A stretch of DNA of 23,312 bases from positions 1 through 23,312 of IMG/VR virus record IMGVR_UViG_3300022745_000144; one strand, 5' to 3'. This document shows, one piece after another, positions 1-23,312 of the stretch. The translations under genes and the position numbers were made by a program. The notes beneath the pieces were generated by a model. The model saw only the letters and a program-made list of their open reading frames with translations, had not been told where the DNA came from and made no database searches. Position 1 is the first letter of the stretch. Each line of letters starts with the position of its first letter. This stretch comes from a virus.

Positions 1-155
1 AAGCAAAAGATAGATTAAAAGCAGCCGAAATGATATTTAAGGTTTTTGGTAGTTTTGCGCCAGAAAAAAGAGTTAATTTAAACATACAAGAAAAAGAAAT
101 AAGTCCAAAGGTTCAAGAATTTGCACGTAAATTGAATTATGGAATTACTGACTAA
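1..155 (+). CDS. Putative terminase small subunit, C-terminal end (partial)
   Basis: An open frame enters from the window edge (first whole codon at 3) and ends at TAA 153-155. It encodes about 50 residues, beginning AKDRLKAAEMIFKVFG and including FAPEKRVNLNI. A pattern of the type 'RLKAAE...FGSFAPEK' is familiar from C-terminal parts of phage small terminases, which recognise DNA and feed it to the large subunit. The next gene is the large terminase and starts inside this frame, with a 17-nt overlap, which fits the usual small-large pair. The DNA-binding N-terminus is outside the window, so the assignment rests on the tail pattern and the neighbour. Confidence 0.6.
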   Translation, partial: AKDRLKAAEMIFKVFGSFAPEKRVNLNIQEKEISPKVQEFARKLNYGITD

Positions 156-1833
156 AGAAGAAATGATACAAGCCGCCAACTTGTATCCGTATAGTTGGAC
201 ACTTCAGAATGAAATAAAGAACGAGGTGGGTTTACCATTGGATTTTGATAAAAGACCGTGGCTTAAAGCTATATACAACGACCTAAGCCCACACCAAGCG
301 TTCCTTAAACCTCCTCAAATTGGAGCAACCGTAATGAATACCCTTAAATCACTATGGGTAGCTAAAAACCTACGTAGACAAATCATTTATACTCTTCCCA
401 CTCAAGGAGACGTACAAGATATGGTAGGAGGTTCTTTTAACCGTATCATTTCCCAAAACCCTATACTAATGGACTGGGTAAGAGACCACGACACTGTAGA
501 ACAAAAATCAGTAGGAGAGTCGATGATATTCTATAGAGGTACGTTTACCTCAAAGCAGGCCATGATGATTCCATCAGGGCTTAATATTCACGATGAAGTA
601 GACGCGTCAGATCCAAATGTTATCGTGCAGTACGAGAACCGTCTCCAAGCTCAAGAAGATGGTGGCTGGCGGTGGTACTTTAGTCACCCTAGCCTATCAG
701 GGCATGGTGTAGATGTATATTGGCAACAGTCAGACAAGAAAGAGTGGTATATAACTTGTTCTAAGTGTGACACAGAACAAACCCTACAGTGGCCACAGAA
801 TGTAGACATGGACCATAAACGCTTTATTTGTAGCCATTGTAAAGAGATTCTAAGTGAGGAAGATAGAGCGTATAAAGGATGCTGGAAGAACCAAGATGGT
901 GTAGTGTGGACTGGAGAAATAGCAGGGGATTACCTATTCTCAGGCTGGCACGTAAGCCAGTTAATGCTGTACAACAAGACTGCCAAGCAGATAATAGACG
1001 CATACAATGACCCTCTAAAGGACAAACAATACTTCTATAACTACGTACTGGGACTTCCATATGTAGACTCAGACGACCGTATTGACCCTGCGGTGGTACT
1101 GCGTAATTGTGTAGATACCGTAAACGACCAGACAGACCGTGTGGTTATTGGTGCAGATACAGGGCATGGCATTCACTTTGTGTGTATGAACAAGCAAGGT
1201 GTTTTCTACTATGAACACGCCACGACTATCAGTGCCAGTCAAACACCGTATGACCGTGTCAAAGAACTATTGAAGCGCTGGCCTAAGTCTATAGCAGTCT
1301 TTGACCAAGGTGGTGACCTTATTGGAGTGCGCCAGTTGCAGTCAGAGTATCCCGGCCGTGTATTCCTTTGTTTCTACAACAAAGACCGCAAGAGTATTGA
1401 ACCTATTGAGTGGGGCAGTAATGATGAATACTGGAAGGTACGAGTAGATCGTAACCGTATGATGACCCTAGTAGTAGAACAGTTACGTGATACAGGACGT
1501 ATTCTACTCAATGGTACTAAAGACGAATGGTATGACTTCGCAGCTATGTTTGGCAATATGTACCGTGAAAAGATTGTAGCTAAAGAACAAAAAGGTAAGG
1601 ATGACCGTACACTCTATGGTAGTGAGTATGTATGGAAACGTAACGGACCAGACCACTTCGCACACGCTTTTCTTTACGCAATGGTGGGTATGCAGCGTTT
1701 CGGTGGCGGAGAAGCTAAGGTAGTAGGAGACAATGTATACACAGGTATGCAATCAGGACGTATCGTACAAGCACCAGTTATCAACAGTTTTGCACCTGAC
1801 GCTTTTACAAAGGAGAATCAAGTGTTATTATAA
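139..1833 (+). CDS. Terminase large subunit, GpA-like packaging ATPase/nuclease
   Basis: 564 residues. This is the motor that translocates DNA into the prohead and cuts it. The ATPase shows a deviant P-loop, KPPQIGAT (57-64), with the lysine at the first position as in lambda gpA (KSARVGYS), and an acidic Walker B-like LNIHDEVD (148-155). A zinc knuckle with Cys207, 210, 231 and 234 follows, as in many GpA-type terminases. The RNase H-like nuclease shows candidate acidic residues Asp340 (VIGADTG), Asp389 (AVFDQGG) and Asp505 in NGPDHFAHA. The protein is slightly shorter than lambda gpA. The ATG overlaps the upstream gene by 17 nt and has no Shine-Dalgarno sequence. Confidence 0.93.
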   Translation: MELLTKEEMIQAANLYPYSWTLQNEIKNEVGLPLDFDKRPWLKAIYNDLSPHQAFLKPPQIGATVMNTLKSLWVAKNLRRQIIYTLPTQGDVQDMVGGSFNRIISQNPILMDWVRDHDTVEQKSVGESMIFYRGTFTSKQAMMIPSGLNIHDEVDASDPNVIVQYENRLQAQEDGGWRWYFSHPSLSGHGVDVYWQQSDKKEWYITCSKCDTEQTLQWPQNVDMDHKRFICSHCKEILSEEDRAYKGCWKNQDGVVWTGEIAGDYLFSGWHVSQLMLYNKTAKQIIDAYNDPLKDKQYFYNYVLGLPYVDSDDRIDPAVVLRNCVDTVNDQTDRVVIGADTGHGIHFVCMNKQGVFYYEHATTISASQTPYDRVKELLKRWPKSIAVFDQGGDLIGVRQLQSEYPGRVFLCFYNKDRKSIEPIEWGSNDEYWKVRVDRNRMMTLVVEQLRDTGRILLNGTKDEWYDFAAMFGNMYREKIVAKEQKGKDDRTLYGSEYVWKRNGPDHFAHAFLYAMVGMQRFGGGEAKVVGDNVYTGMQSGRIVQAPVINSFAPDAFTKENQVLL

Positions 1834-1876
1834 AAACAATTTCCGGCATTCAGCTTAATAAATATATTTAGCGTAC
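1834..1876 (+). promoter_or_regulatory. Short gap with weak promoter-like -10 before portal gene
   Basis: This 43-nt AT-rich gap contains TATATT at 1863-1868, eight bases before the portal ATG. With normal -10 spacing, transcription from it would begin at or next to the start codon, giving a nearly leaderless message. No good -35 box is visible; TTTCCG at 1840-1845 is a poor match. The call is tentative, because the gap may be plain spacer inside a long late transcript. Confidence 0.2.
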
Positions 1877-3814
1877 ATGGCTGATGAGACTAGCCCGTTC
1901 TCACTTAACGTGAGAGGGGTAACAGATTTGGTTGAAAACCAAACAAATAAAACACCATCAGGTGCTGGTGATTCTGTTGAAGGTGCAACGGGCGCAAAGT
2001 ATGACGCCCTCAGTATTTCAATGTCAGATGAGGAGTTGTTGAAACTACGCAATGACATAGAAGCAAAGTATGCACCATATGAAGCTAAGTTTAAGAAGTG
2101 GGCAGAACGCAACCTTGAGAGTTATTTAGGCAAGAAGAAGGACGGTCAATGGCTTACTGAAGGTGGTCCAATTGCCGCTAACCTTCAATTTGAATCAGAA
2201 GAAACCTTTCTTTCAGCTACCCTAGCCAAAAACCCAGAGCCTGTTGTATGGAGTGATAATTCAGAAGCAGGTAACGAGCTTGCTACCTCAGTTAAGACAA
2301 TGCTTGCGTTCCATAGCGAACAGCTTGTCCTTAAGCGTAAGTTTGCCCTCATGGTACGCCAGTGGTCTATCTACCACTTAGGCGTTATTAAGTATGGTTG
2401 GAAGCCTGTAGACGGTGATGATACTAAGGGTGACGTAGAAGTAATGAACCGAAGGATTCAAAACTTTATCTTTGACCCTGAAGGGTATGTTGACGCCTAT
2501 GGTGATTTTATTGGTACTCTTGGTGAACGTGTAGAAATTACCGCAGACAAGCTAATTGAAATGTTCCCTGAACACAAGGAATACATTGTTTTGCAGGTAG
2601 ATGGCAAGCTAGGCACTAAGGTCACTTACACTGAATGGTGGAGTGCAGACAATACCTTTACGTTTGTAACCTTCAAAGAAAAGGTGCTAGATAAGCATAA
2701 AAATGAATACTTTAGATACCCAGAGCCAGAAGTAGATGTACTTACAGGTGAGCCAGTAATTAATGAGATGGGTGAGCCAACAATGAAGCAGCATTTAAAC
2801 CATTTTGCTGCCCCTAAGAAGCCGTACACATTCTTTAGTGTATTTTCCCTACAGGAACAACCACATGATATTACAGGACTTGTAGAGCAGAACATTGCCA
2901 ACCAGAAGAAGATTGCAGACCGTAGTGAACAGATTGACTATAACGTAGCAGCTTCTAATAACGGGTACGCCTACTCAGAAGATAACTTCACACAAGAAAC
3001 AGCCAAGCAAGCTAGTAACGCTCGCCGTAAGGGCAATCCTATTCTTGTCCCTTCAGGTGGACCAATTGACCGTGCTATTCTTCCACTCCCAGCGCAAGAC
3101 CTCCCAGCAGCTATCTTTAATGAGCTAGAAATAACCAAGAACGACTTACGTCAATCATGGGGTATTAATGGTATTGTGGCGCAAAAGCCAGACGAAGACC
3201 AGACAGCTCGTGGCATGATTATCAACCAGTCAAACGATACGTCTCGTATTGGTGGTGGTATTGGTGATGCGCTTGAACAGGTAGCTTCAAGTACCTTTAA
3301 CTGGTTAACTCAGTTGTATTACGTCTTTTATGATGAACCACACTACGCGGCTATCATGGGTAACGCTAAGGCAGTAGAATTCATTACCCTTTCAAACCAA
3401 GACCTTAACCGTATTCTTATTGTTTCAGTATCACCTGATTCACTAAAGCCAAAAGATGAGGTAACTCAAATAAACCTAGCCCAAGCCCTATTTGATAAGG
3501 GTGCTATTGGACCAAAGACTCTTCTAAAAATGTTGGACTTCCCAGACCCAGACCAAGCAGCCGCAGATGGAGTCCTTTACAAGACTGACCCTATGGCATA
3601 CATGCAATTAAACTTCCCAGAGGAATTCGCACGTATGCAACAGTCGCAGCAGATGCAAATGCAACAGCAACAAATGCAACAAATGGGCGGTGGCGCACCT
3701 CCCGAACAAATAAACGGAGAACCACCACAGACTATCAGCCAAGACCCAGCCAGCGCAGCACTCAGTAACGTCCCCTTACCAGGTGTCCAACAATCAGGAC
3801 CAGCATTAAGTTAA
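1877..3814 (+). CDS. Portal protein
   Basis: 645 residues, in the usual range for podovirus portals (P22 gp1 is 725). Portal dodecamers sit at one capsid vertex, dock the terminase and pass DNA. Portal-like features are the stretch around NFIFDPEGYVDAYG (196-209) followed by a predicted helix ending MFPEHK, the helical segment around TARGMIINQSNDTSRIGG (443-460), and the late motif MLDFPDPDQ (552-560). The C-terminus is Gln/Met-rich (about 587-603) then Pro-rich, as expected for a flexible crown. Position directly after the large terminase supports the call. This is the only visible start without T at -1 (it has C), and it has no Shine-Dalgarno sequence. Confidence 0.88.
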   Translation: MADETSPFSLNVRGVTDLVENQTNKTPSGAGDSVEGATGAKYDALSISMSDEELLKLRNDIEAKYAPYEAKFKKWAERNLESYLGKKKDGQWLTEGGPIAANLQFESEETFLSATLAKNPEPVVWSDNSEAGNELATSVKTMLAFHSEQLVLKRKFALMVRQWSIYHLGVIKYGWKPVDGDDTKGDVEVMNRRIQNFIFDPEGYVDAYGDFIGTLGERVEITADKLIEMFPEHKEYIVLQVDGKLGTKVTYTEWWSADNTFTFVTFKEKVLDKHKNEYFRYPEPEVDVLTGEPVINEMGEPTMKQHLNHFAAPKKPYTFFSVFSLQEQPHDITGLVEQNIANQKKIADRSEQIDYNVAASNNGYAYSEDNFTQETAKQASNARRKGNPILVPSGGPIDRAILPLPAQDLPAAIFNELEITKNDLRQSWGINGIVAQKPDEDQTARGMIINQSNDTSRIGGGIGDALEQVASSTFNWLTQLYYVFYDEPHYAAIMGNAKAVEFITLSNQDLNRILIVSVSPDSLKPKDEVTQINLAQALFDKGAIGPKTLLKMLDFPDPDQAAADGVLYKTDPMAYMQLNFPEEFARMQQSQQMQMQQQQMQQMGGGAPPEQINGEPPQTISQDPASAALSNVPLPGVQQSGPALS

Positions 3815-3821
3815 ATAAATT

Positions 3822-3992
3822 ATGTCACTAGATAAAGCATTGAAGAATAAGGTTCGGACTTTAAAAGTAAAATCTACACCTTCATCAGAATATACCCATT
3901 CTTTTCACAAGAAAAACAAAACAGAAAATGAACGAGGGGAACATCAATCAAATTATAAGTACATTCCAAATAGTCGGAAAATAGAAAAATAA
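3822..3992 (+). CDS. Small basic protein of unknown function (56 aa)
   Basis: An open frame of 56 residues between portal and scaffold, starting MSLDKALKNKVRTLK and ending SRKIEK. It is strongly basic and hydrophilic, with no membrane segment and no cysteines. The ATG sits 7 nt after the portal stop and the next gene begins 4 nt after its own stop, so it fits neatly in the operon. The LDKALKNKVR segment weakly resembles LDEALKKKAK in the next protein. Size and charge would allow nucleic-acid binding or a small head component, but neither is shown. Confidence 0.6.
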   Translation: MSLDKALKNKVRTLKVKSTPSSEYTHSFHKKNKTENERGEHQSNYKYIPNSRKIEK

Positions 3993-3996
3993 CTTT

Positions 3997-4161
3997 ATGA
4001 AGCCAAACACAAGTGCATTCACCCCAGCACTCAACAACATTAGGGGAACAAAGCCAAAATCAGCCCTTGATGAGGCATTGAAGAAAAAGGCAAAGCCAGC
4101 AATTAAACAGTACGGTGACAAAGGTTACAAACCTTCTAACGGTACCGGAGTCGGCTACTAA
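3997..4161 (+). CDS. Small basic protein of unknown function (54 aa)
   Basis: An open frame of 54 residues starting MKPNTSAFTPALNN and ending NGTGVGY, four nt after the previous stop. It is Lys-rich in the middle (KSALDEALKKKAKPAIK, 21-37) with a Gly/Tyr-rich tail. There is no membrane segment or recognised motif. Its neighbours are portal and scaffold, so a minor head-assembly or internal role is possible but inferred from position only. Confidence 0.6.
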   Translation: MKPNTSAFTPALNNIRGTKPKSALDEALKKKAKPAIKQYGDKGYKPSNGTGVGY

Positions 4162-4263
4162 GTTTTACGGTGAAACACGGGTTGTAAAGCTCCCGTCAAA
4201 AGCTTGAATATCAATACTAAAAGTCCTAGGAATAGGCGTAATCGCTAGAAATAGCCAACACAT
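4162..4263 (+). promoter_or_regulatory. Intergenic gap with hairpin upstream of scaffold gene
   Basis: A 102-nt gap without an ATG-started ORF. It contains the inverted repeat ACGGG/CCCGT (4177-4181 with 4192-4196) around a 10-nt loop. No U-tract follows, so it is not a classical intrinsic terminator. It could be an RNA processing or stability element between the portal segment and the scaffold-capsid segment. No convincing sigma70 promoter is seen. Confidence 0.3.
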
Positions 4264-4992
4264 ATGAACGAATTAGAAGCATTCCTTAAAGGAACAGAAG
4301 AGCAGGATGATTTGCTTAACCAAAGCCTTGAAATTGAACCTGAAAAGGTAGAAGAGCAAGAGGAAGAGCAACATGAGGAAGATATAAGTCCAAAGACTCG
4401 CAGAGAGCGACGGCTTAAAGAGAAGTTGGAAGCTGAAAGACAATCAGCTATCGACCTCGCTAATCGTTTAGCACGACTAGAAGAAGCACGGGCAGTCCGT
4501 GACGAAGATGAAGAATATCTTAAGGGTATCGAACGCATTTACGGCACAGATTCACCTGAAGCTCAAATGGCTACCGAGTTACTCACTAAAGCTATTGTCG
4601 GGGCGCGTGATGACGCTGAACGCAGGGCATACGAACGTATACAGTCAGAACGTCAAAACGAGTCACAAGCAGTCCAACAGGCAGAATCAGAACTTGATTC
4701 CATTGTTGATGACATTGAAGATAGCTACGGTGTAGAACTAACAGAATCCCAAGAGCGCAGTTACTTTGAACTCTTGCAAAAGATGTCTCCAAAAGACCGA
4801 GAAGGTAATGTCGTTAGTTTGGCAGACCCTTACGCAGTCTTTGAAATCTTTTCTGAAAAACTCCAAAAAGGAACGGATAATCGGGCAAAATCATTATCAA
4901 GCCGTTCGATGGTACAAAGTGGTGCTACTAAAGACAGCACACTTAAAGATGACGCAATGGAGCGTTACCTAGTCGAAAACGGCATAATTTAA
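4264..4992 (+). CDS. Capsid scaffolding-like protein
   Basis: 242 residues, highly charged and predicted mostly helical, directly before the major capsid gene, where scaffolds normally sit. An acidic N-terminus with Glu runs (25-40) leads into a basic/coiled-coil region (44-80) and a further coiled coil around 115-150. The C-terminus contains KSLSSRSMVQSG (209-220) and ends in YLVENGII, the kind of conserved tail seen in scaffolds of environmental podoviruses. It would guide capsid protein assembly and be removed before packaging. There is no protease gene nearby, so exit without cleavage is possible. The start has no Shine-Dalgarno sequence. Confidence 0.75.
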   Translation: MNELEAFLKGTEEQDDLLNQSLEIEPEKVEEQEEEQHEEDISPKTRRERRLKEKLEAERQSAIDLANRLARLEEARAVRDEDEEYLKGIERIYGTDSPEAQMATELLTKAIVGARDDAERRAYERIQSERQNESQAVQQAESELDSIVDDIEDSYGVELTESQERSYFELLQKMSPKDREGNVVSLADPYAVFEIFSEKLQKGTDNRAKSLSSRSMVQSGATKDSTLKDDAMERYLVENGII

Positions 4993-5005
4993 AAACTAAA
5001 CTTAT

Positions 5006-6037
5006 ATGGCACCTAATGTAACACTTCAGGCTACCGTAAATCAGTACCTTGCACCCTACTGGGTAGATCAGGTACTTCGAGACAACCTCTTTTTCGGTAA
5101 ACTGATGACTAAGACAAAGAAGTGGGATGGTGCTCAATACCTCATCCCAATGAAGTACCAGAAGGGCGTCTCTTCAGTAGCGTTCAATGGTTACGACCTA
5201 CTTCCAATCACACAGCAGCCAACTACTGTGAACATGACTTTTTACCCAACTTTCATTGCTACCAACGTTTCATTGTCTGGTTCAGACCTTTCGGTCAACG
5301 CTACTCCAATGCAGACTTTGAATCTCATGAAGGTAACAATGGAAAGTCGTAAGCAGGATGCTGCTGACGATGTTGGTAACTTCCTACAGGGTGACGGTAC
5401 TAGCTTCGGTGGTAAGGCTCCTAACGGACTCGCTAACACTATCGACGATGGTACAGTTGCTTCAACTTACGGTGGTCTTTCACGTACTACCTACTCAGGT
5501 CTTAACGCAACTAAGACTGCTTCAGGCGGTACTATCTCACTCGTAAAGGTACGTACTCTTTGGAACGCTATTGCAGATGGTCCAGTACAGCCTGACTTCA
5601 TCATTACTGATTACACCACATGGGGTTACTTCGAGCAGCTTCAGACTCCATTCCAGCGAAACACTGCTGACTTTGGTCGTGACGCAGGTCGTACTGCTTC
5701 AACTTCTGGTTACAGCGCACAAATGTGGGATGGTATGGAAATCAGCCGTGACAAGAAGGTAACTTCTGGTAGTTTCTACATGCTCAACATGAAGGACACA
5801 CTTGACTGGTACGCACTCAAGTGGTGGGAAGGAGAGCGAGTTACTCCAAAGGCTAAGGACATTCAGGGTAACATTTACGAAGACCGAACTTACGCACCTT
5901 CTGATGCATTCACATGGACTGGCATGATCAAAGCTTACAACCAGGGCACTATCAATGGATTCATGATTCTTGGTGGACAGCTCATTTGTAAGGCTCCATT
6001 CCGTAACGGTGTTCTCACAGGCATCACAGGTGTATAA
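5006..6037 (+). CDS. Major capsid protein, HK97-fold type
   Basis: 343 residues, a normal size for an HK97-fold capsid protein, directly after the scaffold and 13 nt from its stop. The N-terminal part contains MTKTKKWDGAQYLIPM (34-49) and a middle helix around 104-128 (LNLMKVTMESRKQDAADDVG). A DFIITDYTTWGYFEQL segment (197-212) and the late WDGMEISRDKKVTSGSFYML (241-260) match the shape 'G-x-P-V-xx-D-xxx-G-x-Y-xLN' common in HK97-like capsid proteins. No long N-terminal delta domain is apparent, consistent with a separate scaffold. Two of its alternative frames are also open, which I take as a codon-usage by-product. Confidence 0.88.
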   Translation: MAPNVTLQATVNQYLAPYWVDQVLRDNLFFGKLMTKTKKWDGAQYLIPMKYQKGVSSVAFNGYDLLPITQQPTTVNMTFYPTFIATNVSLSGSDLSVNATPMQTLNLMKVTMESRKQDAADDVGNFLQGDGTSFGGKAPNGLANTIDDGTVASTYGGLSRTTYSGLNATKTASGGTISLVKVRTLWNAIADGPVQPDFIITDYTTWGYFEQLQTPFQRNTADFGRDAGRTASTSGYSAQMWDGMEISRDKKVTSGSFYMLNMKDTLDWYALKWWEGERVTPKAKDIQGNIYEDRTYAPSDAFTWTGMIKAYNQGTINGFMILGGQLICKAPFRNGVLTGITGV

Positions 6038-6042: not shown

Positions 6043-6068
6043 ATAGGTAACTAATTCATAATACCTAT
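6043..6068 (+). promoter_or_regulatory. Inverted repeat covering the start codon after the capsid gene
   Basis: ATAGGTA (6043-6049) is perfectly complementary to TACCTAT (6062-6068) across a 12-nt AT-rich loop. The right arm includes the A and T of the ATG at 6067. In RNA this 7-bp stem would partly mask the start codon of the downstream decoration-like gene. It lies in the 29-nt gap after the capsid gene and could tune the ratio of the two proteins. Function is inferred. Confidence 0.35.
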
Positions 6069-6426
6069 GACTCAATACATCGAGGACGTATTGCCTCCAA
6101 TCCAGTCAGCTGGACTCAATACGCAAAAGGCATTTAGTACTACAAGTACTCTTGCTTCAGGCGCACAAACTGTAACTGGTGCTGTTTCAGCAACAGGTAC
6201 AACCACTTCACTTAGCGGTACTGCAACCACAGCCGGTGGTGCAACTGCTGCGGCATTCTCAATGGGTACTGCCGCAGTTGGTATTTACTTCGGTTCAGGC
6301 GCACCAACTATCTCAGCTGCACAGGGTAGTCTCTACCTTCGTACTGATGGTTCAAGCACATCAACTCGACTATACGTAAATACCAATGGCTCTACTACTT
6401 GGACAAACGTAACTACTGCCGCTTAA
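6067..6426 (+). CDS. Small beta-rich virion protein, head fibre/decoration-like
   Basis: 119 residues, rich in Thr, Ser, Ala and Gly. After a short N-terminal segment (MTQYIEDVLPPIQSAG) comes a low-complexity Thr/Ala region (24-70). The final module contains GIYFGSGAPTISAAQGSLYL and ends TNGSTTWTNVTTAA. The pattern 'GAPT..A..GSLYLRTDG...LYVNTNGSTTW' recurs in phage head-fibre and tail-fibre tips. Position right after the capsid gene favours an outer capsid decoration. Start ATG 6067 lies within a 7-bp inverted repeat. A fibre role elsewhere on the virion cannot be excluded. Confidence 0.6.
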   Translation: MTQYIEDVLPPIQSAGLNTQKAFSTTSTLASGAQTVTGAVSATGTTTSLSGTATTAGGATAAAFSMGTAAVGIYFGSGAPTISAAQGSLYLRTDGSSTSTRLYVNTNGSTTWTNVTTAA

Positions 6427-6427
6427 T

Positions 6428-6583
6428 ATGACTAAGGTTGTAGAGGCTGTAAAAAAGGCAGTAACGAAGAAGCCTAAAGTAGTAGAAGAAACCGTTACAA
6501 CTTGTGAAAAGTGTAACGGTACCGGACTACTCGACGTCAACAACATTTGTGTTGTCTGCGACGGTTCAGGAATGGTTTCCTAA
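6428..6583 (+). CDS. 51-aa mini zinc-finger protein with two DnaJ-type CxxCxGxG motifs
   Basis: The ATG is one base after the previous stop (TAA-T-ATG). The 51 residues have a Lys/Val-rich N-terminus (2-24) and then two knuckles, CEKCNGTG (26-33) and CVVCDGSG (41-48), that match the CxxCxGxG repeat of the DnaJ cysteine-rich domain. DnaJ has four such repeats binding two zinc ions; the pair here would suffice for one. No J-domain or substrate-binding domain is present. It sits between decoration-like genes, so a role in folding or assembly of virion proteins, or simply a stable zinc-bound mini-fold, are possibilities. Function is unknown; the motif itself is clear. Confidence 0.8.
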   Translation: MTKVVEAVKKAVTKKPKVVEETVTTCEKCNGTGLLDVNNICVVCDGSGMVS

Positions 6584-6669
6584 AAACCTATGACGCCGAC
6601 ACGGTGGCTGCCCACGTTTTAGGGGGAAAGAGACGTGAAGGGAATTAGTAAATTAAAGTTAAAACTTAT
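6584..6669 (+). promoter_or_regulatory. Gap with 10-codon ORF and two mutually exclusive hairpins
   Basis: The 86-nt gap starts with a comparatively GC-rich stretch. A 10-codon ORF (ATG 6590, TAG 6620-6622; MTPTRWLPTF) begins 6 nt after the previous stop and has T at -1 like the real genes. Its end overlaps two stems that cannot form together: GTGG/CCAC (6604-6607 with 6612-6615), and CACGT/ACGTG (6613-6617 with 6633-6637), which can be extended by CC 6611-6612 pairing GG 6640-6641 past a two-base bulge. This resembles a leader-peptide or attenuator layout for the next gene, but could be chance. Confidence 0.25.
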
Positions 6670-7437
6670 ATGTCTAGAATTACTCAACGAGCTGCCAATG
6701 GTCCACTTGCACTTGTGGCTAACGGTGCTTTTCAGACTTCAACAGACGCTTCACTTAAGACTATGGTGGGAACACGATGGGACTTGAGCGATGGTCGTGA
6801 ACTCCTTTTGGTTCGCGCTGGTGCAGTTGATGTTGCTGCTGGTAAGCTCTATCAGGATGCTGCTATTGTAGCTAACCACCAAAACCTTACTGTTACTGCG
6901 TACACTGCGTACTCAAACAACGGTAACGTACCTGCTTCTGTAGCAGTTACTCTTGGTGCAACCGCAGCAACAGCTAACCAGTACGCAGGTGGTCTCCTTA
7001 TCGTGAACAGTTCAACTGGTCTCGGTCAGACACTACGTATTGCTTCACACCCAGCTGCAAACTCAGGTGCTGGTCTTGTACTTACTCTAGAAGAAGGTGC
7101 TGTTACAGCAATCACAACCTCTTCAAAGGTATGTCTCATCCCACCACACGGTGCTGATGTAATCATTAACCCAACTACACCAACTGGTGCTGTTGCGGGT
7201 ATCGGTTTGTACATCGTACCAACTACTACCTACGGTTTCCTTGTTTCTCGTGGTATTACCGCAGGTCTTGCAGATGGAACAATCACAGTCGGTACTCCAA
7301 TTTCACCCTCTACTTCAGTAGCCGGTGCATTGGTACAGACACCATACGCAACAAACGTGGTCACTGCGGCTGTTGTTGGATACGCCAACCAAGCTGGTGT
7401 GACAACTGAATACCGTTCAGTATTCATTAACGTCTAA
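6670..7437 (+). CDS. Putative capsid decoration / structural protein (255 aa)
   Basis: 255 residues, beta-rich, low in charged residues and rich in Ala, Thr, Val and Gly. It begins MSRITQRAANGPLALVANGA. The segment DGRELLLVRAGAVDVAAGKL (41-60) and the following regular 'small-residue' strands, including TAYTAYSNNGNVPASVAVTLG, look like a structural protein that coats a surface. There are no catalytic motifs or membrane helices. It lies in the head cluster two genes after the capsid protein. Such proteins next to capsid genes in environmental phages are usually virion components. The family name is not recognised with certainty. Confidence 0.6.
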   Translation: MSRITQRAANGPLALVANGAFQTSTDASLKTMVGTRWDLSDGRELLLVRAGAVDVAAGKLYQDAAIVANHQNLTVTAYTAYSNNGNVPASVAVTLGATAATANQYAGGLLIVNSSTGLGQTLRIASHPAANSGAGLVLTLEEGAVTAITTSSKVCLIPPHGADVIINPTTPTGAVAGIGLYIVPTTTYGFLVSRGITAGLADGTITVGTPISPSTSVAGALVQTPYATNVVTAAVVGYANQAGVTTEYRSVFINV

Positions 7438-7490: not shown

Positions 7491-7535
7491 GGAACTTTGT
7501 TAAAAAGTAATCTAGCCTGTTAAAGGCACAAATAT

Positions 7536-8057: not shown

Positions 8058-8058
8058 T

Positions 8059-14619: not shown

Positions 14620-14620
14620 T

Positions 14621-14887: not shown

Positions 14888-14890
14888 CGT

Positions 14891-17827
14891 ATGTCATGGA
14901 GAACGGAAAAGACTAGGACAGGACAAGACCTTGTGTGGGACACAGTGGAACTTGGTATTTCTCCGTCTCCAACTAAGGGAATTGCTAATTTACAAAACGT
15001 CAACATCTCTACAGAAAGTGGTGAAATGCTTGCTTCATATGCGCGTATTGCACAACAACAAACGGCTATAACTAACGGTACTTTAACACCAAACGGTTCA
15101 ACTAACTTTACTGGACCTAACACATTAAAAGCTGGTACATGGATTTCCGTGTCTGCTTCTAGCGTAACTTCAATTTCAACTACTACTAGTCCAAGCTCAG
15201 TTACTGCCAGTTACCTTACCGTTGGTGGTGGTGGTTCAGGTGGTGGTGTAGCTAATGTCAATAAAGCAGTTGGTGGTGGTGGTGGTGGTGGTGAAGTAAA
15301 AACTGGCACTAATGCGTTTTCAGTAGGAAGTACTTTAATTACTGTAGGAGCAGGAGGTGTTGATGATGGCTCAGGAACTTATCATCCCGGTAGTTCTTCT
15401 ATAATTGCTGGGGTTTCTACAGCTACAGGTGGGGGTGCTGGTGGTCGTGGTGCTGCCTCAAACTTAAATGGTGGTTCAGGTGCAAATGGTGGTGGAGGTG
15501 GTGCACTTGATCCTACTGCTGGTACAGCAGGCACAGGAACCGTTAAAAACGGTGGTGCGGGTGTGTTTTCTGCAGGTGTAAGTGCTGCTGCTGGTGGAGG
15601 TGGTGGTAACGCGGCTAATGGTTCAAATGGTTCAGTTTCTACTGGTGGTAACGGTGGCGCTGGTACATCAAATTCAATCTCAGGCACAGCAGTTGTTTAT
15701 GGTTCAGGTGGAGGTGGTGGAGGGTTTTCAACGGGTGGTACTGCTGGTACTAATGCTGGAAATGGAGCAGGTAACGATGCAGCAGGTTCTAATGCAACAG
15801 CAAATCTTGGAGGTGGTGGTGGCGGTGCAGCTGCAAATGGAGGGTCTTCTTCTCATTTAGGGGGAAGCGGAGCTAATGGTGTTGTTATTATTTCCTATAC
15901 AACAGGTTCAATGGTAGCTCACGGAGGTACAATAACGTATTCAGGAAGCAATACCATCCATACGTTTACCGAAACAGGCACTTTTACTGTAGTTTCAATT
16001 GCAAAGACAAACCTCTACTACGTTTCGTACGCTAGTGGTACTACTTTTAAATTGTCTTCAAAATTTGACCCTACTGGTGCAAATGCACTTTCACACGGTA
16101 CTACAGGTAGTATTACCTTTAGTACTGTAGCAGTACCGAATCAAGGGGTCGCTAAAGCTACTGAACAATACACCACAGCAAGTATAACGGCATATAGATA
16201 TTACGTACTAGATGCTAACGGGTACACGTGGGTGTGGGACACTACTATTAATTCCGCTTACGGAACGCAGTGGATGTTACCTGATCCAAACGATTATTCC
16301 ACTCTTAAATTAACTGGTTTAGCGGCATTAAATGGGCAATTGGTATCAGTAGGTATGGCCTCTATTTATGCAAAACCAACAGTAGATTTAGGTAGACTGT
16401 ACAACAGATTAAATAATTGCTGGTTAAATGAGCCATTTCCTACTCATAAAAACTTTGCTATTGCTTCAAATCAAGGCAAAATTTATTATTGTGACGGTAA
16501 TTATATTGGTGAAATATTCCCCACCACTTCACTCATTACTAGCATTGCAAATATTCAGTCTAACTGTTCCTACACCGCTTCAAGTACAACGGGCACACTC
16601 TCTGCGATTGTAAGTGGCTCTATTCCGTATTCTTCTGACGGGACTCGTATTCCCGCCGTGTTTTATACGGATGTGTATGGAACACAACCAACTAACCTTA
16701 CACCGAGTACCGTGTATTACATTCAATACGCACCAGCATCAGGTACTTTTGAGGTGTACTTAGCGTCTGCAGCTGGTTCAGCAATTGATATAGCTACAGG
16801 CGCAACTGGAAATCAGTACTTTAATACTTTCTGGCCATTTGGTTCACAGGCGGGTATCAACGGCACACTTCCTACAGTGCAATTCAGTAACCAACGCGTA
16901 AACCTTCCCGCTAATGAAACAGCACAGACAATGGTAGAAATTGGTAATACTGTGCTTATTGGCGGTACTAGTTCAACTATTTACCCGTGGAATCAAGTAG
17001 ACGCCACTCCTTCCGACTTTATTGAATTACCAGAAGCAAACGTAAAAACAATGGTAAACGTCAATAATATTGCGTATATCTTTGCTGGTAATAAAGGCAA
17101 TATTTACATTTCAAACGGTAGCGTAGCTTCTTTGATTCTTAAGGTGCCAGACTATTGTGCTGGCGTTCCGGGAACTCCCCTTACGTACATTGAGCCTGTA
17201 TATACATGGGGTGATGCTGATTACGTACGTGGTCGTGTATATTTTTCAATTCTTGACCAGACCTCAACCAAAGCAGGTAACTGTGGTGGTGTATGGTCAT
17301 TTGTACCAAGTCAAAACATTGACCCTAACCAAGATATTGGTATGGCACTTCGCCTTGAAAACCAAAACTCATATGGTGACTATGACGGGTACTGTAACCT
17401 AATTATTGCCAATCAAGAGCAAAATGTAACCTCACCACAATACTGGACAATGTGGCAGGATAGTTATTCAACTGGGACTTCGTCATTCGGTATTGATGGA
17501 ACTGGAACAACACCAGTAACCCAATACATGTTTGAAACAGACTTACTCCCTGTTGGTACTTTCCTAGAAAAGGGGACTTTCCAACAGCTCGAATATAAGC
17601 TTACTACACCACTTGCTTCAGGTGATTCAATCCAACTCTACTATCGTACCAACTCAACTGAAGCATGGACTTCATTTGGATCTGCAACTACCGAGACAGG
17701 TACCGTGTCAGCTTACTTCAGTCAAACAGTGCAAAAAAGTCAATGGTTACAATTTAGAGGTGTAGTTACAACCGACGGAACTACTGCTTCCTCATTTGTC
17801 AGATTTAAACAGCTTATGCTTCGCTAA
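14891..17827 (+). CDS. P22 gp10-like tail/stabilisation protein with glycine-rich domain (978 aa)
   Basis: 978 residues. The N-terminus (LVWDTVELGISPSPTKGIAN, 14-33, then NVNISTESGE) fits proteins related to P22 gp10, which plug and stabilise the neck; the region 420-550 and 660-978 reads as beta-propeller-like repeats. Within it, residues about 103-337 form a glycine-rich domain, from VTASYLTVGGGGSGGG to GVVIISYTTGS, of the kind seen in phage adhesins and related surface proteins. Residues 345-367 resemble the first strands of a second such domain. Another small beta module lies at about 560-645. So it is probably a tail hub that also displays a binding surface. The gp10 assignment is by pattern only. 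Confidence 0.65.
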   Translation: MSWRTEKTRTGQDLVWDTVELGISPSPTKGIANLQNVNISTESGEMLASYARIAQQQTAITNGTLTPNGSTNFTGPNTLKAGTWISVSASSVTSISTTTSPSSVTASYLTVGGGGSGGGVANVNKAVGGGGGGGEVKTGTNAFSVGSTLITVGAGGVDDGSGTYHPGSSSIIAGVSTATGGGAGGRGAASNLNGGSGANGGGGGALDPTAGTAGTGTVKNGGAGVFSAGVSAAAGGGGGNAANGSNGSVSTGGNGGAGTSNSISGTAVVYGSGGGGGGFSTGGTAGTNAGNGAGNDAAGSNATANLGGGGGGAAANGGSSSHLGGSGANGVVIISYTTGSMVAHGGTITYSGSNTIHTFTETGTFTVVSIAKTNLYYVSYASGTTFKLSSKFDPTGANALSHGTTGSITFSTVAVPNQGVAKATEQYTTASITAYRYYVLDANGYTWVWDTTINSAYGTQWMLPDPNDYSTLKLTGLAALNGQLVSVGMASIYAKPTVDLGRLYNRLNNCWLNEPFPTHKNFAIASNQGKIYYCDGNYIGEIFPTTSLITSIANIQSNCSYTASSTTGTLSAIVSGSIPYSSDGTRIPAVFYTDVYGTQPTNLTPSTVYYIQYAPASGTFEVYLASAAGSAIDIATGATGNQYFNTFWPFGSQAGINGTLPTVQFSNQRVNLPANETAQTMVEIGNTVLIGGTSSTIYPWNQVDATPSDFIELPEANVKTMVNVNNIAYIFAGNKGNIYISNGSVASLILKVPDYCAGVPGTPLTYIEPVYTWGDADYVRGRVYFSILDQTSTKAGNCGGVWSFVPSQNIDPNQDIGMALRLENQNSYGDYDGYCNLIIANQEQNVTSPQYWTMWQDSYSTGTSSFGIDGTGTTPVTQYMFETDLLPVGTFLEKGTFQQLEYKLTTPLASGDSIQLYYRTNSTEAWTSFGSATTETGTVSAYFSQTVQKSQWLQFRGVVTTDGTTASSFVRFKQLMLR
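15272..15292 (+). repeat. (GGT)7 tandem repeat inside the glycine-rich domain
   Basis: Seven consecutive GGT codons encode Gly128-134 of the 978-aa protein. Shorter GGT/GGA runs recur throughout 15220-15860. Triplet slippage here would change loop length without shifting frame. Confidence 0.85.
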
Positions 17828-17828
17828 T

Positions 17829-18449
17829 ATGACACCAGACAAAATTAGACAAATAGTGCGCGAAGAAATCAGTAGGAGCAATGCTTCTTCTCGGTTTCGA
17901 TATGACAGCGTTCCCCACCATACTCATAATGGTACTGATAGCCTACAAATTAAAAATAACGATATTATTCCGGGTGTTTCTGTTTCAGGTAGTATAACTT
18001 TTCAGTCTGCTGATACATATATCCTTTATTTTAACGCCCCGTTTACTCCTAAACAGATACTGTGTACTGGGAATGCACAAACAATAGGAGGTGCAACAAA
18101 TCGTTATTTCTTTATTGGCACAGCCCAACTTGGTCCTAGTTTCTATTTTCAACCACAAGATAATCGAACAGTTATTGCTGGTGGACCGCAATATCCTTTT
18201 AGAGACCCAAATCACCCTGAATATGGGACAAACATACCTATGCAGTCCACTGCATATTGGGGCAGCGAATCAGCTGGTGGAACACGTCATACGCTTGCTG
18301 GCAATTTCCACCTAATTGATATCCAGTACCCAATAGGGACAAGTCATGCAAGAGCGACAGTTACTGACTTTAATAAAAACTCTGTTACGATTGTTGTGGA
18401 TGCTTTAGATGCAGGATGGGAGATAAACGCTAATATAGTAATTACATAA
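17829..18449 (+). CDS. Tail protein with HTHNG metal-motif, 206 aa
   Basis: 206 residues from ATG 17829 (TAA-T-ATG); a TTG at 17796 inside the upstream gene is rejected. A short N-terminal helix (KIRQIVREEISRS, 5-17) is followed by SVPHHTHNGTDSLQI (27-41). 'HTHNG.DS' motifs with closely spaced histidines are common in phage tail-tip and neck proteins, where HxH can bind metal at a trimer axis; that role is inferred here. The rest is beta-rich, with FTPKQILCTGNAQTIGG (72-88) and a C-terminal strand pair ending WEINANIVIT. Between a gp10-like and a connector-like gene, it is probably a tail hub or spike base. Confidence 0.6.
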   Translation: MTPDKIRQIVREEISRSNASSRFRYDSVPHHTHNGTDSLQIKNNDIIPGVSVSGSITFQSADTYILYFNAPFTPKQILCTGNAQTIGGATNRYFFIGTAQLGPSFYFQPQDNRTVIAGGPQYPFRDPNHPEYGTNIPMQSTAYWGSESAGGTRHTLAGNFHLIDIQYPIGTSHARATVTDFNKNSVTIVVDALDAGWEINANIVIT

Positions 18450-18450
18450 T

Positions 18451-19563
18451 ATGAAAACGTACACTCAACTTAAAAACCTTGCCACCAATCTCTCAAATAA
18501 CAGCTCTACTGACAATGCTAATTTAATGGGGCAGCTTATTTCTGACCGACATCGCTATCTTATTCAGAAATGGTTCGATAACGAACGTACCTACACAACA
18601 GTTACTATTGGCGCTCAATCCCTTACAACCACAGCCTCTCTATCTGTAGGTGATACCTCAGCCACCCTTACAACCACTTGGACTAGTCCTTCTTGTCAGC
18701 AGCTAGTTAATTTCTCAGGTGGCGAACAACGCACGGTGCGGTTTACGCAAGGTTCTACCGCTATTTCATGGCAACCTCCACTTACTGAAACTGCTACCAC
18801 AGCTATCACCACCGTTGGTGTACAGGCATACCCAATCCCAGCTAATGTTTCAAAGATTAAAAATACCACAATCACTCTCGGTCAATTGGTGTACACCCCT
18901 TCTACAGTCCAATCTATCCAAGAATGGACCATGCTTAATGCTCTCCCATACACCTCTGATATTCCAAACCAATTCTATATCTACAATAACCAGATAATGT
19001 TCTGGCCTATTCCGAGTACTTCAGGAAACGTCATTACCCTTAATTATAAGAGCCGCGTACCAGACCTTTCCTTTGCTGATTACAGCACAGGGACACTTTC
19101 TAGTATTGCAGTCGGAGACAATCAAATTACAGGTATTAGTACTTCATGGAATACCACTGGAACATTTCCATTAAATACTGATCTCACTTTCTTTAATCTC
19201 TTTCTTAGAATAGATCCGCCAAAGGGCGATGGTATTTGGTACCCAATCCAAAAGTTTAATTCTGATACTGAGGTGATTCTTGCTACTCCTATCCAAAATG
19301 CTCCTTCTTCAACTGCTACTACATACACCATCGGTCAATTACCATTGCTTGAGGAAGACTTTCACGACATGTTAGTGTTTGGCGCTCTCAAGGTGTACTT
19401 CTCCTCAATTGTAAAAGACCAAAACCTATTTCAGCAGTATAATAATTTAGAAGCAGAACGTCTTGAAATGTTGAAAGATTATGCTGGCACGAAATCAGTA
19501 AATGTTGACCTAGGCTCACAAGTTGTGCCGAATAACCCTAACCTTTACCTGTTTGCAAACTAA
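18451..19563 (+). CDS. Head-tail connector-like protein with inserted beta modules (370 aa)
   Basis: 370 residues. The N-terminal helix region with LMGQLISDRHRYLIQKWFDN (25-44) and the middle LPYTSDIPNQFYIYNNQIMF (165-184), WPIPSTSGNVITLNY and the C-terminal helical ending (LPLLEEDFHDMLVFGALKVY, 297-316) match adaptor proteins of the T7 gp11 / P22 gp4 kind, which join portal to tail. Two beta segments look inserted: about 58-125 (with TLTTTWTSP and RFTQGSTAISWQP) and about 213-295 (with WYPIQKFNSDTEVIL). Start TAA-T-ATG. The assignment is from pattern and position. Confidence 0.6.
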   Translation: MKTYTQLKNLATNLSNNSSTDNANLMGQLISDRHRYLIQKWFDNERTYTTVTIGAQSLTTTASLSVGDTSATLTTTWTSPSCQQLVNFSGGEQRTVRFTQGSTAISWQPPLTETATTAITTVGVQAYPIPANVSKIKNTTITLGQLVYTPSTVQSIQEWTMLNALPYTSDIPNQFYIYNNQIMFWPIPSTSGNVITLNYKSRVPDLSFADYSTGTLSSIAVGDNQITGISTSWNTTGTFPLNTDLTFFNLFLRIDPPKGDGIWYPIQKFNSDTEVILATPIQNAPSSTATTYTIGQLPLLEEDFHDMLVFGALKVYFSSIVKDQNLFQQYNNLEAERLEMLKDYAGTKSVNVDLGSQVVPNNPNLYLFAN

Positions 19564-19573
19564 TTATTAATAT

Positions 19574-21202
19574 ATGGCATACATAAACAACACATTCAAA
19601 CCCGCACCTTCTGTATCTCCTGCTTGGAAAGCTTTTGGTAGTCAGTACAAAGTTAATACTGATAACCAAATAGCTCCTAAAAACAGTTATTCTTATACTC
19701 CTTCAATTGCTAACATTACTGGTACAAAAGTAGCGCCGAGCCTGTTTTCTAATGGAACATCTGGTGTGGTAAAGCCATCTACAACGGGTAACGCTGTTAG
19801 CAAAAGTTCAGCACCTCTTACTCCTAGTGTAGCGGGTAGTCAGGGTGTTGCACCAGCAAGTACGCCAATTAATTCTGGTATTGGAGCCACAACAAATGTT
19901 GGTTCTGTACCGCAAACAGGTACTAAAGGACTTCTGAATGCCCCAGCAAAAAATGCTCGTGGTGGTATTGCAAAAGCAGATGCAAGTACGGGAACAAGTA
20001 CAAATCCAAGCACGGGGTACGCAGGGTATGTTGGTCAAATTGGTAATGCTGCCAATGCTTCAGATGCACAACGTAAATTACAGCAACAGCTACAAAACGA
20101 ATCAATGGCTAATAAGCAAATTGGTGAAAATGCACGAAACATCGCTGATCAATACAGTGGTGAAATTGCTCGTATTGGTAAACTTGGTGCTGGTGCAGTT
20201 GCAGGTGACATGTCTACAGGTTCAAATGTCGTTGGTTCGGGTAATGCAGCAATTGCTTCACAGTCTGCTTCTTCACGTATGCAAGCACTTGGTAACGCTG
20301 AACAAGCAGCCCTTCAAGGAACAGGACAGCAACTTACTGGACAGGCACAGGCACAGTCTGGACTTAATCAAGCTCTTGGTAGCGCCAATACACAACAGCA
20401 ATTACAGATTAGTGGTCTTGGTACTGCAGCAGGTTATGCTCAACCTAGTCCAGCTGCCTATGGTCAGTCGGTATTTAATCCCCTTACAAGGCAATATGAG
20501 GGCAATAGTGGGCTTCCACCGGAGACAATGGCTCAATACGCACAAATGGCTGCTAATGGGCAATACAGTGCCATTCCTAGCTCAATTACTAGCAATCCGG
20601 TACTATCTGCACAGCTTAATGCTGCTGCCCAGCAAATTAACCCTGCGTACAATCCTATTGCTTCACAAGCTCAAGGTGCTACACAGGCTTCTAACATTCA
20701 GACACTTGGTACAGCCGGGGCTTCTTCAGCTGCTGGTCTAACTCAACAAATGAGTCAATTGCAATCAAGTGCAAATGGCGCAGAAGCAAATTTCAACTTG
20801 CTTACTAATATTGCTCAACAAGGAGGAGTAAATAATTTTGACCAACCAGCTCTTAACCAGATTGAACAAAACGTAAAGAAAGGTCTTATTGGTGATGACG
20901 CTGTTATTCAGTTCCGTTCTATTATTCAGACTGTACGTTCTCAATATGCTTCTATTATTGGTGGTGGTACTCCTTCAGTAGAAGCCTTGCAAGAAGCGCA
21001 GCAAATTATTCCTGATAATGTATCTATTAATAGTCTCAAAAATCTTGGAGTAAATCTTCGTGCAGATGCACAAAATCGTATTGCTGGTATTCAGCAACAA
21101 ATAAGCAGTCTTAGTAGTAGCGCACCGGGAGCAGGAAGTCAAAGCGTTAATAATTTTCAGCCAGTCCAAACTTCAGCAGGAACCATTAATACTAATTGGT
21201 AA
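19574..21202 (+). CDS. Putative ejection (internal virion) protein, 542 aa
   Basis: 542 residues, rich in Ala, Gln, Ser and Gly. The first ~150 residues are Pro/Thr/Ser-rich and probably disordered. From about 155 to the end it is mainly helical, with stretches such as DAQRKLQQQLQNESMANKQI (163-182), and a C-terminal part GIQQQISSLSSSAPGAGSQ. No enzymatic motif is seen. This is the composition of the proteins ejected with DNA by podoviruses (P22 gp7/gp20/gp16, T7 gp14-16), and it lies directly before a protein with a lysozyme-like domain. The call rests on composition and position. Confidence 0.55.
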   Translation: MAYINNTFKPAPSVSPAWKAFGSQYKVNTDNQIAPKNSYSYTPSIANITGTKVAPSLFSNGTSGVVKPSTTGNAVSKSSAPLTPSVAGSQGVAPASTPINSGIGATTNVGSVPQTGTKGLLNAPAKNARGGIAKADASTGTSTNPSTGYAGYVGQIGNAANASDAQRKLQQQLQNESMANKQIGENARNIADQYSGEIARIGKLGAGAVAGDMSTGSNVVGSGNAAIASQSASSRMQALGNAEQAALQGTGQQLTGQAQAQSGLNQALGSANTQQQLQISGLGTAAGYAQPSPAAYGQSVFNPLTRQYEGNSGLPPETMAQYAQMAANGQYSAIPSSITSNPVLSAQLNAAAQQINPAYNPIASQAQGATQASNIQTLGTAGASSAAGLTQQMSQLQSSANGAEANFNLLTNIAQQGGVNNFDQPALNQIEQNVKKGLIGDDAVIQFRSIIQTVRSQYASIIGGGTPSVEALQEAQQIIPDNVSINSLKNLGVNLRADAQNRIAGIQQQISSLSSSAPGAGSQSVNNFQPVQTSAGTINTNW

Positions 21203-21204
21203 TT

Positions 21205-23055
21205 ATGCAGCCACAAATGGATACTGACGCAATCAACCTTGCTAAAGCAATCCGCCAGACAGAAAGTGGCGGTAACTTTAATGCTAAAGGAAAAAGCGGT
21301 GAATCAGGTGCATACCAGTGGACACCAGACACTTGGAAAGTACACGCTAAACAAGTACTCGGAGATGAAAATGCACCGATGACTCCTTCAAATCAAAACG
21401 CTGTTGCCTATAGTGTTATTAAAGCAGATAAGGACGCAGGATTAAACCCAGCCCAAATTGCCGCTAAATGGAACTCAGGTTCTCATGTAGGATGGGAGAA
21501 TAAGGTTGGTGTAAACAAAATGGGTGTCAAATATGACGTTCCGGCATACGTAAAGTCAGTCACAGAAGCCTACCAACAAATTAAAAGAGGTGGCAATGTT
21601 GGAATGGATGCGAATAATCCTTCGAGCACAGGTGCGCCTCCAACTAGCGCTTACCAAACACAACCTGCCGTAACACCAACTGCCACTTCACAAGTGGCGC
21701 CAGAACAACCACGAGAAACTGGCGTGTTTCAAGGAGCTAAACAATTCTTACCGGGTCTTATGGGTGACCTTTCTGGTCGTCTTAAAGATGCATATTCGGC
21801 AGGTGCTAGTGGTTTGACTGCGGTGGGACAAGGTAATGTTGGAGGCGCAATTGCAGGCGGTATCAACACTCTTGGTGCTGTAGCGGGTGGCGTTGGAGAC
21901 GTATTTAACCGAACTCTTGAAACAGTGCCGGGGGTTGTACAGGCAGAAAACGCTATCGCTGGTACTAAGACAGCTCAAGGTCTTGGTGAAGACTTGCAGA
22001 CTTTTGCACAAGAACACCCTGACGCTAATAAGCTCATTGGTTCTGGTTTAAACATTGCTTCAGCTCTTCCAATTATTGGTTCTGTAAAAAATGCAGCAGG
22101 TGCTGTGTCTCGAATTGTAGATAAGGCAGCAGTAAAAACCATTACAAAAGATGCTATTGGCGATCTAAAGTACGCTGCGGGAAATAGCAAAACTGCACAA
22201 AATCTTGGCAAACGTGGGGTATTTGAAAGTCTAGTAAAAAACGATACTTTACCGGAAGTATCGGTAAATCATGTGGGTATTCCAGTATTCAACTCGGAAG
22301 GTGCTTTAGCTAAAGTCCAGTCAAAACTTGATGACATTATCAAGCAACAAGATGAAATCCTTGCGAAACAGCCAGCCAAATACAACTCACAGCAGTTGGG
22401 TAATTACACCAAGTTTAATGGTGAAACTACGATTACCTCACCAGTACATGACGCTATTGACGCTCTTAAAAAACACTTTGATTCAACCTACGACACAACT
22501 GGTTCTACATGGGTAAAACAAATGGAACAAAAGGTTGCTAGTGATGGAATTACTGTTGGTGAAATAAATAGTATTGCTCGAAAACTAGGGGAAACAAGTG
22601 ATTCATTTAAAAACACCGGTGACTTATCTACTCAGACTACCAAAAAGGCTTTAGAAAATATTCGAAAGCAATTAAAGGAGGAAGTAGCAAATCGCGATGT
22701 GACTGGTGGGGTGCGTAAACTAGACGCTGAATACGCCAAATTAAGAAATGATAAAAAGGCGCTTGAAGGTCTAAATAATAGAAAAGCACCTCTTAAAAAG
22801 AAAGGTGGTCTTGTTCGCAAAACATTGTCTAACGCTCTTGGGGTAGCTGGTGAAGGTGCTGGCAAGGCAGTCGGTACACCTATTACAGGTGCCCTTGGTG
22901 GGCGTGGTCTGGCAGGTTTAGTGCAACCAAAAGCGATATCTTCTGTACAAAAACTTAATGACTTGCGGCAAAAATCCACTCTAGGAAGGAAAGCCCTAAA
23001 ACAAGCAGTACGGGGCCAAGTCCAAACAAAAGCAGAAGAAGCAACAAGACAATAA
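21205..23055 (+). CDS. Virion protein with N-terminal lysozyme-like muralidase domain
   Basis: 616 residues from ATG 21205, two bases after the previous stop; an in-frame TTG at 21196 is disfavoured. Residues 8-125 form a transglycosylase/lysozyme-like domain: AKAIRQTESGGNFNAKGKSG (13-32), with Glu20 as likely catalytic residue, then SGAYQWTPDTW (34-44), AAKWNSGS (86-93) and YVKSVTEAYQQI. After a Pro/Thr linker (about 138-172) come Gly/Ala-rich amphipathic helices (about 176-300) and helical, basic C-terminal parts, including LDDIIKQQDEIL. It is most likely an ejection protein that digests peptidoglycan locally at infection, comparable to T7 gp16 in logic. No signal peptide. Confidence 0.7.
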   Translation: MQPQMDTDAINLAKAIRQTESGGNFNAKGKSGESGAYQWTPDTWKVHAKQVLGDENAPMTPSNQNAVAYSVIKADKDAGLNPAQIAAKWNSGSHVGWENKVGVNKMGVKYDVPAYVKSVTEAYQQIKRGGNVGMDANNPSSTGAPPTSAYQTQPAVTPTATSQVAPEQPRETGVFQGAKQFLPGLMGDLSGRLKDAYSAGASGLTAVGQGNVGGAIAGGINTLGAVAGGVGDVFNRTLETVPGVVQAENAIAGTKTAQGLGEDLQTFAQEHPDANKLIGSGLNIASALPIIGSVKNAAGAVSRIVDKAAVKTITKDAIGDLKYAAGNSKTAQNLGKRGVFESLVKNDTLPEVSVNHVGIPVFNSEGALAKVQSKLDDIIKQQDEILAKQPAKYNSQQLGNYTKFNGETTITSPVHDAIDALKKHFDSTYDTTGSTWVKQMEQKVASDGITVGEINSIARKLGETSDSFKNTGDLSTQTTKKALENIRKQLKEEVANRDVTGGVRKLDAEYAKLRNDKKALEGLNNRKAPLKKKGGLVRKTLSNALGVAGEGAGKAVGTPITGALGGRGLAGLVQPKAISSVQKLNDLRQKSTLGRKALKQAVRGQVQTKAEEATRQ

Positions 23056-23058: not shown

Positions 23059-23087
23059 AGGTTAGTTTCATACATAAAACTATACCT
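23059..23087 (+). terminator. Hairpin after the muralidase gene
   Basis: Four bases after the stop, AGGT-TAGTTT (23059-23068) pairs with AAACTA-T-ACCT (23077-23087): ten pairs with one bulged T and an 8-nt loop. It lacks a following U-run, so it is a weak terminator or a transcript-end protecting element rather than a strong intrinsic one. It divides the virion genes from the lysis gene. Confidence 0.4.
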
Positions 23088-23140
23088 CACTATCCCCAAT
23101 AATGCAAGATTTATCCCCAATTAAGTTTTATAGTAAAACT
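23088..23140 (+). promoter_or_regulatory. Candidate operator/promoter region before the endolysin
   Basis: The 10-bp sequence TATCCCCAAT occurs at 23091-23100 and exactly again at 23112-23121: 21 bp apart, two helical turns, as expected for a protein bound on one face of DNA. Then AGTTTTA/TAAAACT (23124-23130 with 23134-23140) forms a perfect inverted repeat ending at the base before the ATG. TATAGT at 23129-23134 is one mismatch from the -10 consensus, six bases from the ATG, so the message could start at or near the ATG. No good -35 is seen, which would fit activator dependence. All inferred. Confidence 0.4.
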
Positions 23141-23312
23141 ATGAAAGATTCTCTACTTCAACAGATAGCCAAATTACAGGCTTTGTTGCAAACCTTATCA
23201 TTCCAGCGGCCGGCTAGACTTACTAATCTAGTACAAAAAAAAGCTGACGAAGTAATAGCTGAAATGACCACTTTTGGTTACAAAGTAATGATATATCAAG
23301 GATTTCGTTCTT
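23141..23312 (+). CDS. Endolysin, M15-type peptidase, N-terminal part (partial)
   Basis: The first 57 residues of a gene that runs off the window. After a helical lead (MKDSLLQQIAKLQALLQTL) come LTNLVQKKADEVIAEM (27-42) and YKVMIYQGFRS (47-57). The pattern 'helix ... V.I.QG.RS' is the entry to the catalytic domain of M15 peptidases (VanY / L-Ala-D-Glu endopeptidase endolysins); the zinc ligands HxxxxxxD and HxH would lie beyond the edge. The Leu/Gln-rich heptad lead is unusual and may anchor or oligomerise the enzyme. Its likely role is cell-wall cleavage at lysis. Confidence 0.65.
   Translation, partial: MKDSLLQQIAKLQALLQTLSFQRPARLTNLVQKKADEVIAEMTTFGYKVMIYQGFRS

Follow-up and report, generated by a model that had tools for sequence, protein, structure and literature searches.

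Genes in this stretch of phage DNA begin almost invariably at TATG, with a T at position -1 and next to no Shine-Dalgarno (SD) pairing upstream. The same start mode recurs in related phages and in several lineages of Patescibacteria (CPR), which supports in part the original interpretation, namely a start mode of phage or host marked by UAUG and not by anti-SD pairing. We consider it reasonably likely that the phage is tuned to an SD-less host that chooses A/U-rich, unstructured UAUG, the likely host being a member of those Patescibacteria lineages whose own genes carry the T.

The stretch analysed (hereafter the window) is the entire 23,312-base IMG/VR record IMGVR_UViG_3300022745_000144. We re-derived 26 plus-strand genes in it, among them those for terminase, portal, major capsid and tail; the window is a fragment of a tailed phage. 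With starts picked by position, ATG is the start codon of all 26 genes and T occupies -1 in 25 of them, the sole exception being the C before the portal gene at 1877; these are the counts, and the exception, that had been read from the sequence at the outset. The starts are as follows.

138..141, + strand: TATG start of the terminase large subunit gene 139-1833 (PHROG 675, E 1e-77)
1876..1879, + strand: CATG start of the portal gene 1877-3814 (PHROG 156), the only one without T at -1
3821..3824, + strand: TATG start of gene 3822-3992
3996..3999, + strand: TATG start of gene 3997-4161
4263..4266, + strand: TATG start of gene 4264-4992
5005..5008, + strand: TATG start of the major capsid gene 5006-6037 (PHROG 9953, E 9e-36)
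6066..6069, + strand: TATG start of gene 6067-6426
6427..6430, + strand: TATG start of gene 6428-6583
6669..6672, + strand: TATG start of gene 6670-7437
7535..7538, + strand: TATG start of gene 7536-8057
8058..8061, + strand: TATG start of gene 8059-8763, with the strongest SD-like site among the starts (AAAGGGA, -5.1 kcal/mol)
8765..8768, + strand: TATG start of gene 8766-9065
9067..9070, + strand: TATG start of gene 9068-9550
9546..9549, + strand: TATG start of gene 9547-9966, which overlaps the preceding gene by 4 nt
9962..9965, + strand: TATG start of gene 9963-11444, which overlaps the preceding gene by 4 nt
11445..11448, + strand: TATG start of gene 11446-11721
11724..11727, + strand: TATG start of gene 11725-13545
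13547..13550, + strand: TATG start of gene 13548-13955
13938..13941, + strand: TATG start of gene 13939-14619, which overlaps the preceding gene by 17 nt
14620..14623, + strand: TATG start of gene 14621-14887
14890..14893, + strand: TATG start of gene 14891-17827
17828..17831, + strand: TATG start of gene 17829-18449
18450..18453, + strand: TATG start of the tail-related gene 18451-19563
19573..19576, + strand: TATG start of gene 19574-21202
21204..21207, + strand: TATG start of gene 21205-23055
23140..23143, + strand: TATG start of the last gene (from 23141), open to the window end

The last, truncated reading frame (23141-23312, ending ...MIYQGFRS) resembles the start of a putative peptidase-type lysin. 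Stop codons of the window genes are TAA in 21, TGA in 3 and TAG in 1 of 25 cases, a usage that fits code 11.

The T at -1 is a property of starts and not of ATGs at large. Only 26 of 112 internal in-frame ATGs of the window (23%) and 18-21% of its out-of-frame ATGs are preceded by T, so the frequency at starts is far from that of internal ATGs (Fisher p ~5e-11 against the in-frame set, slightly conservative as it was computed with 24/26 T at starts). The -1 column holds 1.49 bits of information; no other upstream column exceeds 0.37. A trivial origin would be tight gene packing, in which the T simply trails the preceding stop codon (TAAT), or else the procedure by which starts were selected. 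Six window genes do have a stop, then T, then ATG (1-nt gap; TAAT-ATG or TAGT-ATG). However, gaps to the previous stop span -17 to +102 nt and the T is found across this whole range, including 19 of the 20 starts with other gaps; it therefore belongs to the start and does not depend on a fixed TAAT around the stop. Starts were chosen by position, homology-anchored starts in relatives agree on the T (see below), and relatives that have the same gene order and lack the T show A or C instead. Operon packing does not account for the T in the window, and we regard an artefact of packing or start picking as extremely improbable.

SD pairing, by contrast, is weaker at window starts than at internal ATGs: against CACCUCCUUA, the best duplex averages -0.7 kcal/mol at starts, whereas internal ATGs average -2.6 (p = 5e-4). 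The start at 8059 is the only one below -4.4 kcal/mol, in agreement with the initial reading of a near-total lack of SD with 8059 as the best site. SD cores occur at 0% of window starts vs 12% of internal ATGs, and are thus no commoner where initiation takes place; SD motifs were not seen in most early genes, and a test for enrichment of anti-SD-complementary motifs upstream of window starts found none.

Scans with the capsid and terminase recovered about 25 distinct related IMG/VR phages of useful length, several of 39-44 kb. With starts selected by position only, and with the statistics of some genomes resting on about 20 starts each, T at -1 reaches 0.90, 0.83, 0.77 and 0.71 in four relatives (G003, G002, G007 and G005), vs 0.15-0.29 at their internal ATGs. 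Elsewhere in the clade T is low, at 0.17-0.30, with A or C in its place. At starts anchored by homology to window proteins, T stands at -1 in 61 of 83 cases in T-type relatives vs 12 of 45 in the others, T-type and non-T groups (of phages and, below, of cellular genomes) being defined by T at -1 itself. On the terminase phylogeny most low-T phages occupy one nested clade, where T is mostly 0.17-0.35, and the high-T phages (0.71-0.90) are spread over several other lineages. No clade phage tested has an excess of SD cores. The T signal is thus not fixed across the phage clade; its recurrence, with differences, among relatives marks it as genuine, inherited and able to change, which is what a signal that tracks the host should show. 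Distant capsid relatives use SD at 81% (MG269973) and 68% (MW202566) of starts. The former, TM7 phage DolZOral124_53_65, is a capsid relative at 26% identity that is assigned to a Patescibacteria host; it differs from the window phage in using SD, as Saccharibacteria do, so phages mirror the initiation mode of their hosts.

Several other features of the relatives were observed. In six of them (G006, G007, G011, G015, G016 and G020) the major capsid gene matches as two segments separated by several hundred bases, an arrangement that looks like an intron or another inserted element, and in L030 and L069 the terminase matches are likewise stretched. A divergent Cpn60/GroEL-like chaperonin is encoded upstream of terminase in nearly all relatives (L075:11226-12734 and homologues), adjoined in many by a conserved 60-amino-acid open reading frame (KEYGELVxKHxIDFATYPxFVPDGxGGF). 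Two relatives have tRNA genes, L033:5046-5117 (tRNA-Met, cat) and L042:11836-11909 (tRNA-Trp, cca).

The features around T-type starts bear on how the T is used. In T-type phages the starts lie in A/T-rich sequence with little folding (-2.2 kcal/mol, against -5.3 at internal ATGs) and have fewer other ATGs nearby. T precedes internal in-frame ATGs of these phages at a frequency of 0.25, below the 0.34 seen before other A-starting codons (p = 4e-9). The window gives 0.20 before internal Met codons vs 0.41 before other A-starting codons; non-T phages, at 0.24 vs 0.22, show no avoidance. For the phages, these data suggest that the signal is TATG as such and that genes avoid it internally, although codon-pair effects may contribute. 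Another conceivable source of the T is leaderless translation, with a promoter abutting each gene and the T belonging to its -10 element or to the context of the transcription start. TANNNT does lie within -14 to -5 at 20% of starts vs 7% of internal ATGs of T-type phages, but the A/T richness of these regions would by itself predict roughly such a rise, no fixed -10 column exists upstream of starts, and most genes overlap or closely follow the previous gene (1-3 nt gaps) in long co-directional runs. Given this packing and the missing -10 column a leaderless mode is unlikely, and as an account of the T we rate it very improbable.

The same signature is found in cells. For a CPR sample centred on one named set of loci fetched by 16S pattern, we scored 20-kb ribosomal-operon stretches of 40 Patescibacteria genomes for T at -1 and SD. 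T at -1 spans 0-0.95 in these stretches: 6 of the 40 (G087, G077, G071, G095, G048 and G082) have T at 0.87-0.95 with no SD excess, and G050, G079, G062 and G061 have 0.70-0.79, SD enrichment again being absent. Saccharibacteria, Daviesbacteria and others use SD. Within the class of G077, which we believe from 16S and tree position to be Paceibacteria (Parcubacteria), 10 of 24 sampled genomes reach T >= 0.7, and SD cores have a median of 0.13 at starts vs 0.17 inside genes. In the 16S tree, G095 and G062 group with this class, G050 and G071 adjoin it, and G087, G048 and G082 fall elsewhere, a scatter that places the T trait in more than one lineage. Separately, genomes labelled Nomurabacteria (G021-G023; L125, L148, L149) use SD and cluster with Saccharibacteria, G022 and G023 in the tree of ribosomal proteins and G021 and G022 in that of 16S; the labels of G021-G023 may be wrong.

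Because the signal of T before ATG with no SD is also present in some Patescibacteria genes, the phage is probably adapted to such a host, one that we infer from the start signature only. A signal peculiar to the phage and not dependent on the host, decoded by a phage-encoded factor or by a modified ribosome, would agree with the difference in T between lineages of one phage clade and with the avoidance of internal TATG, which CPR genes do not share, a disparity that we count against the Patescibacteria reading. However, Pfam searches of 20 proteins of relatives found no phage-coded translation factor, and the same T signal is present in cellular genes; we hold this explanation to be improbable.

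The remaining alternative is that the host is a member of the Bacteroidota or another SD-less group (for example, Chlorobi), the T being an extreme form of a known start logo. In Bacteroides logos T is enriched at -1, and in Chlorobi C or T directly precedes the start, the enrichment in the logos of both groups being a weaker one (PMC3155529). The T at -1 is not confined to CPR, which also counts against a Patescibacteria host: in Bacteroidota phages it ranges over 0.51-0.76 (11b 0.58, B124-14 0.51, crAss001 0.76), with little or no SD excess in these three. Bacteroidota initiation, which is SD-independent and Kozak-like (A-3/A-6), resembles the mode described here in lacking SD while mostly retaining the anti-SD, and in its A/T-rich, unstructured start regions with T enriched at -1 (PMC6847099, PMC3155529). 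The present signal is set apart by a near-universal T, by the lack of an A block at positions -14 to -11 and by a best cellular match, among those found here, in Patescibacteria. A makes up 40-50% of positions -14 to -11 in T-type phages and 41-47% in T-type CPR, vs 61-68% in Bacteroidota phages, so that the block typical of Bacteroidota is missing from the clade and from T-type CPR alike. The -20 to -1 profile of T-type phages correlates at 0.74 with that of T-type CPR, a value driven largely by the -1 column itself, and at 0.50 with that of Bacteroidota phages. The weak A block and the higher CPR correlation favour Patescibacteria over Bacteroidota.

Gene content and promoters bear on the same choice. 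The clade chaperonin matches Cellulophaga and Flavobacterium phages, but at only ~31% identity, and Enterococcus and Listeria phages match too; we rejected this GroEL-like gene as a host marker because matches at such identity occur in many phages and are uninformative. The Bacteroidota-type promoter TTG-N19-TANNTTTG is at chance level in the clade, while crAss001 and B124-14 carry a ~3-5 fold excess, a weak argument since Flavobacterium phage 11b is likewise at chance; sigma-70 promoter counts in the clade are not enriched. Scans for a prophage or shared-gene link between the phage clade and a host gave none, which counts against the Patescibacteria reading. A TerL profile scan of genome contigs returned 107 pattern hits and no relative, although an empty scan without a positive control shows little; the capsid profile matched neither 20 named CPR genomes nor 380 Patescibacteria genomes; and a conserved small phage protein used as host marker gave one partial match (E 7e-4), taken as chance. 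We judge a Bacteroidota or other SD-less host outside Patescibacteria to be fairly unlikely.

The translation machinery of the T-type Patescibacteria genomes places the loss of SD use in context. The 16S tail CCTCC is kept in most of them (G077, G071, G095, G050, G087 and G062), so their start mode does not in general stem from a lost anti-SD. Altered tails, each from a single assembly in which sequencing error is possible, were read in G082 (L301; GGAACACTTAAACAAG, anti-SD lost), in G048 (L309; CTTCC) and in G085 (L302; CCGCC), the last a genome without SD and A-type at -1. These three resemble, in their altered tails and lack of SD, the organisms lacking a CCUCC anti-SD, for which a survey lists mainly Bacteroidetes, Mycoplasma and Carsonella (PMC6107228); most T-type CPR genomes differ in retaining CCUCC. 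SD use thus seems to be lost before the anti-SD decays, a sequence of events suggested for other SD-scarce groups as well (PMC10783764). Readable tRNA-Met(cat) genes have A37 in T-type G095 and in non-T G085, G067 and G063; A37 is therefore available yet does not explain the difference between lineages. A bS21 gene is present in 7 of 10 T-type genomes, with no match in G087, G048 and G079, and shows no clear link.

With respect to mechanism, the most probable reading has the initiation complex selecting an open AUG with U at -1, and this U would stabilize the complex either through a fourth pair with A37 of the initiator tRNA or through stacking in the P/E-site mRNA path. The putative U-1:A37 pair is the simplest physical explanation. 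An extended codon-anticodon interaction between U-1 and A37 was reportedly found by experiment on single genes (Esposito et al. 2003, EMBO J). A direct role for U at -1 would follow from such an interaction; the earlier case concerns single genes, whereas here the putative pairing would be a genome-wide rule. More broadly, many Patescibacteria and their phages might have replaced SD by a four-base UAUG read by the initiator tRNA, with the anti-SD decaying in some lineages, a generalization that we offer tentatively and consider rather doubtful.

Enrichment of T at -1 in SD-less bacteria is already known in weaker form. In the limited literature searched we did not find a near-invariant T at -1 common to CPR genomes and a phage clade, nor a paper joining Parcubacteria with anti-Shine-Dalgarno. 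How ribosomes locate starts in the absence of SD has been studied mainly in Bacteroidota, and the near-invariant U at -1 of CPR genomes and this phage clade offers a simple, testable alternative signal. Such a signal would improve the calling of gene starts in CPR genomes, and start logos would help to predict the hosts of uncultivated phages.
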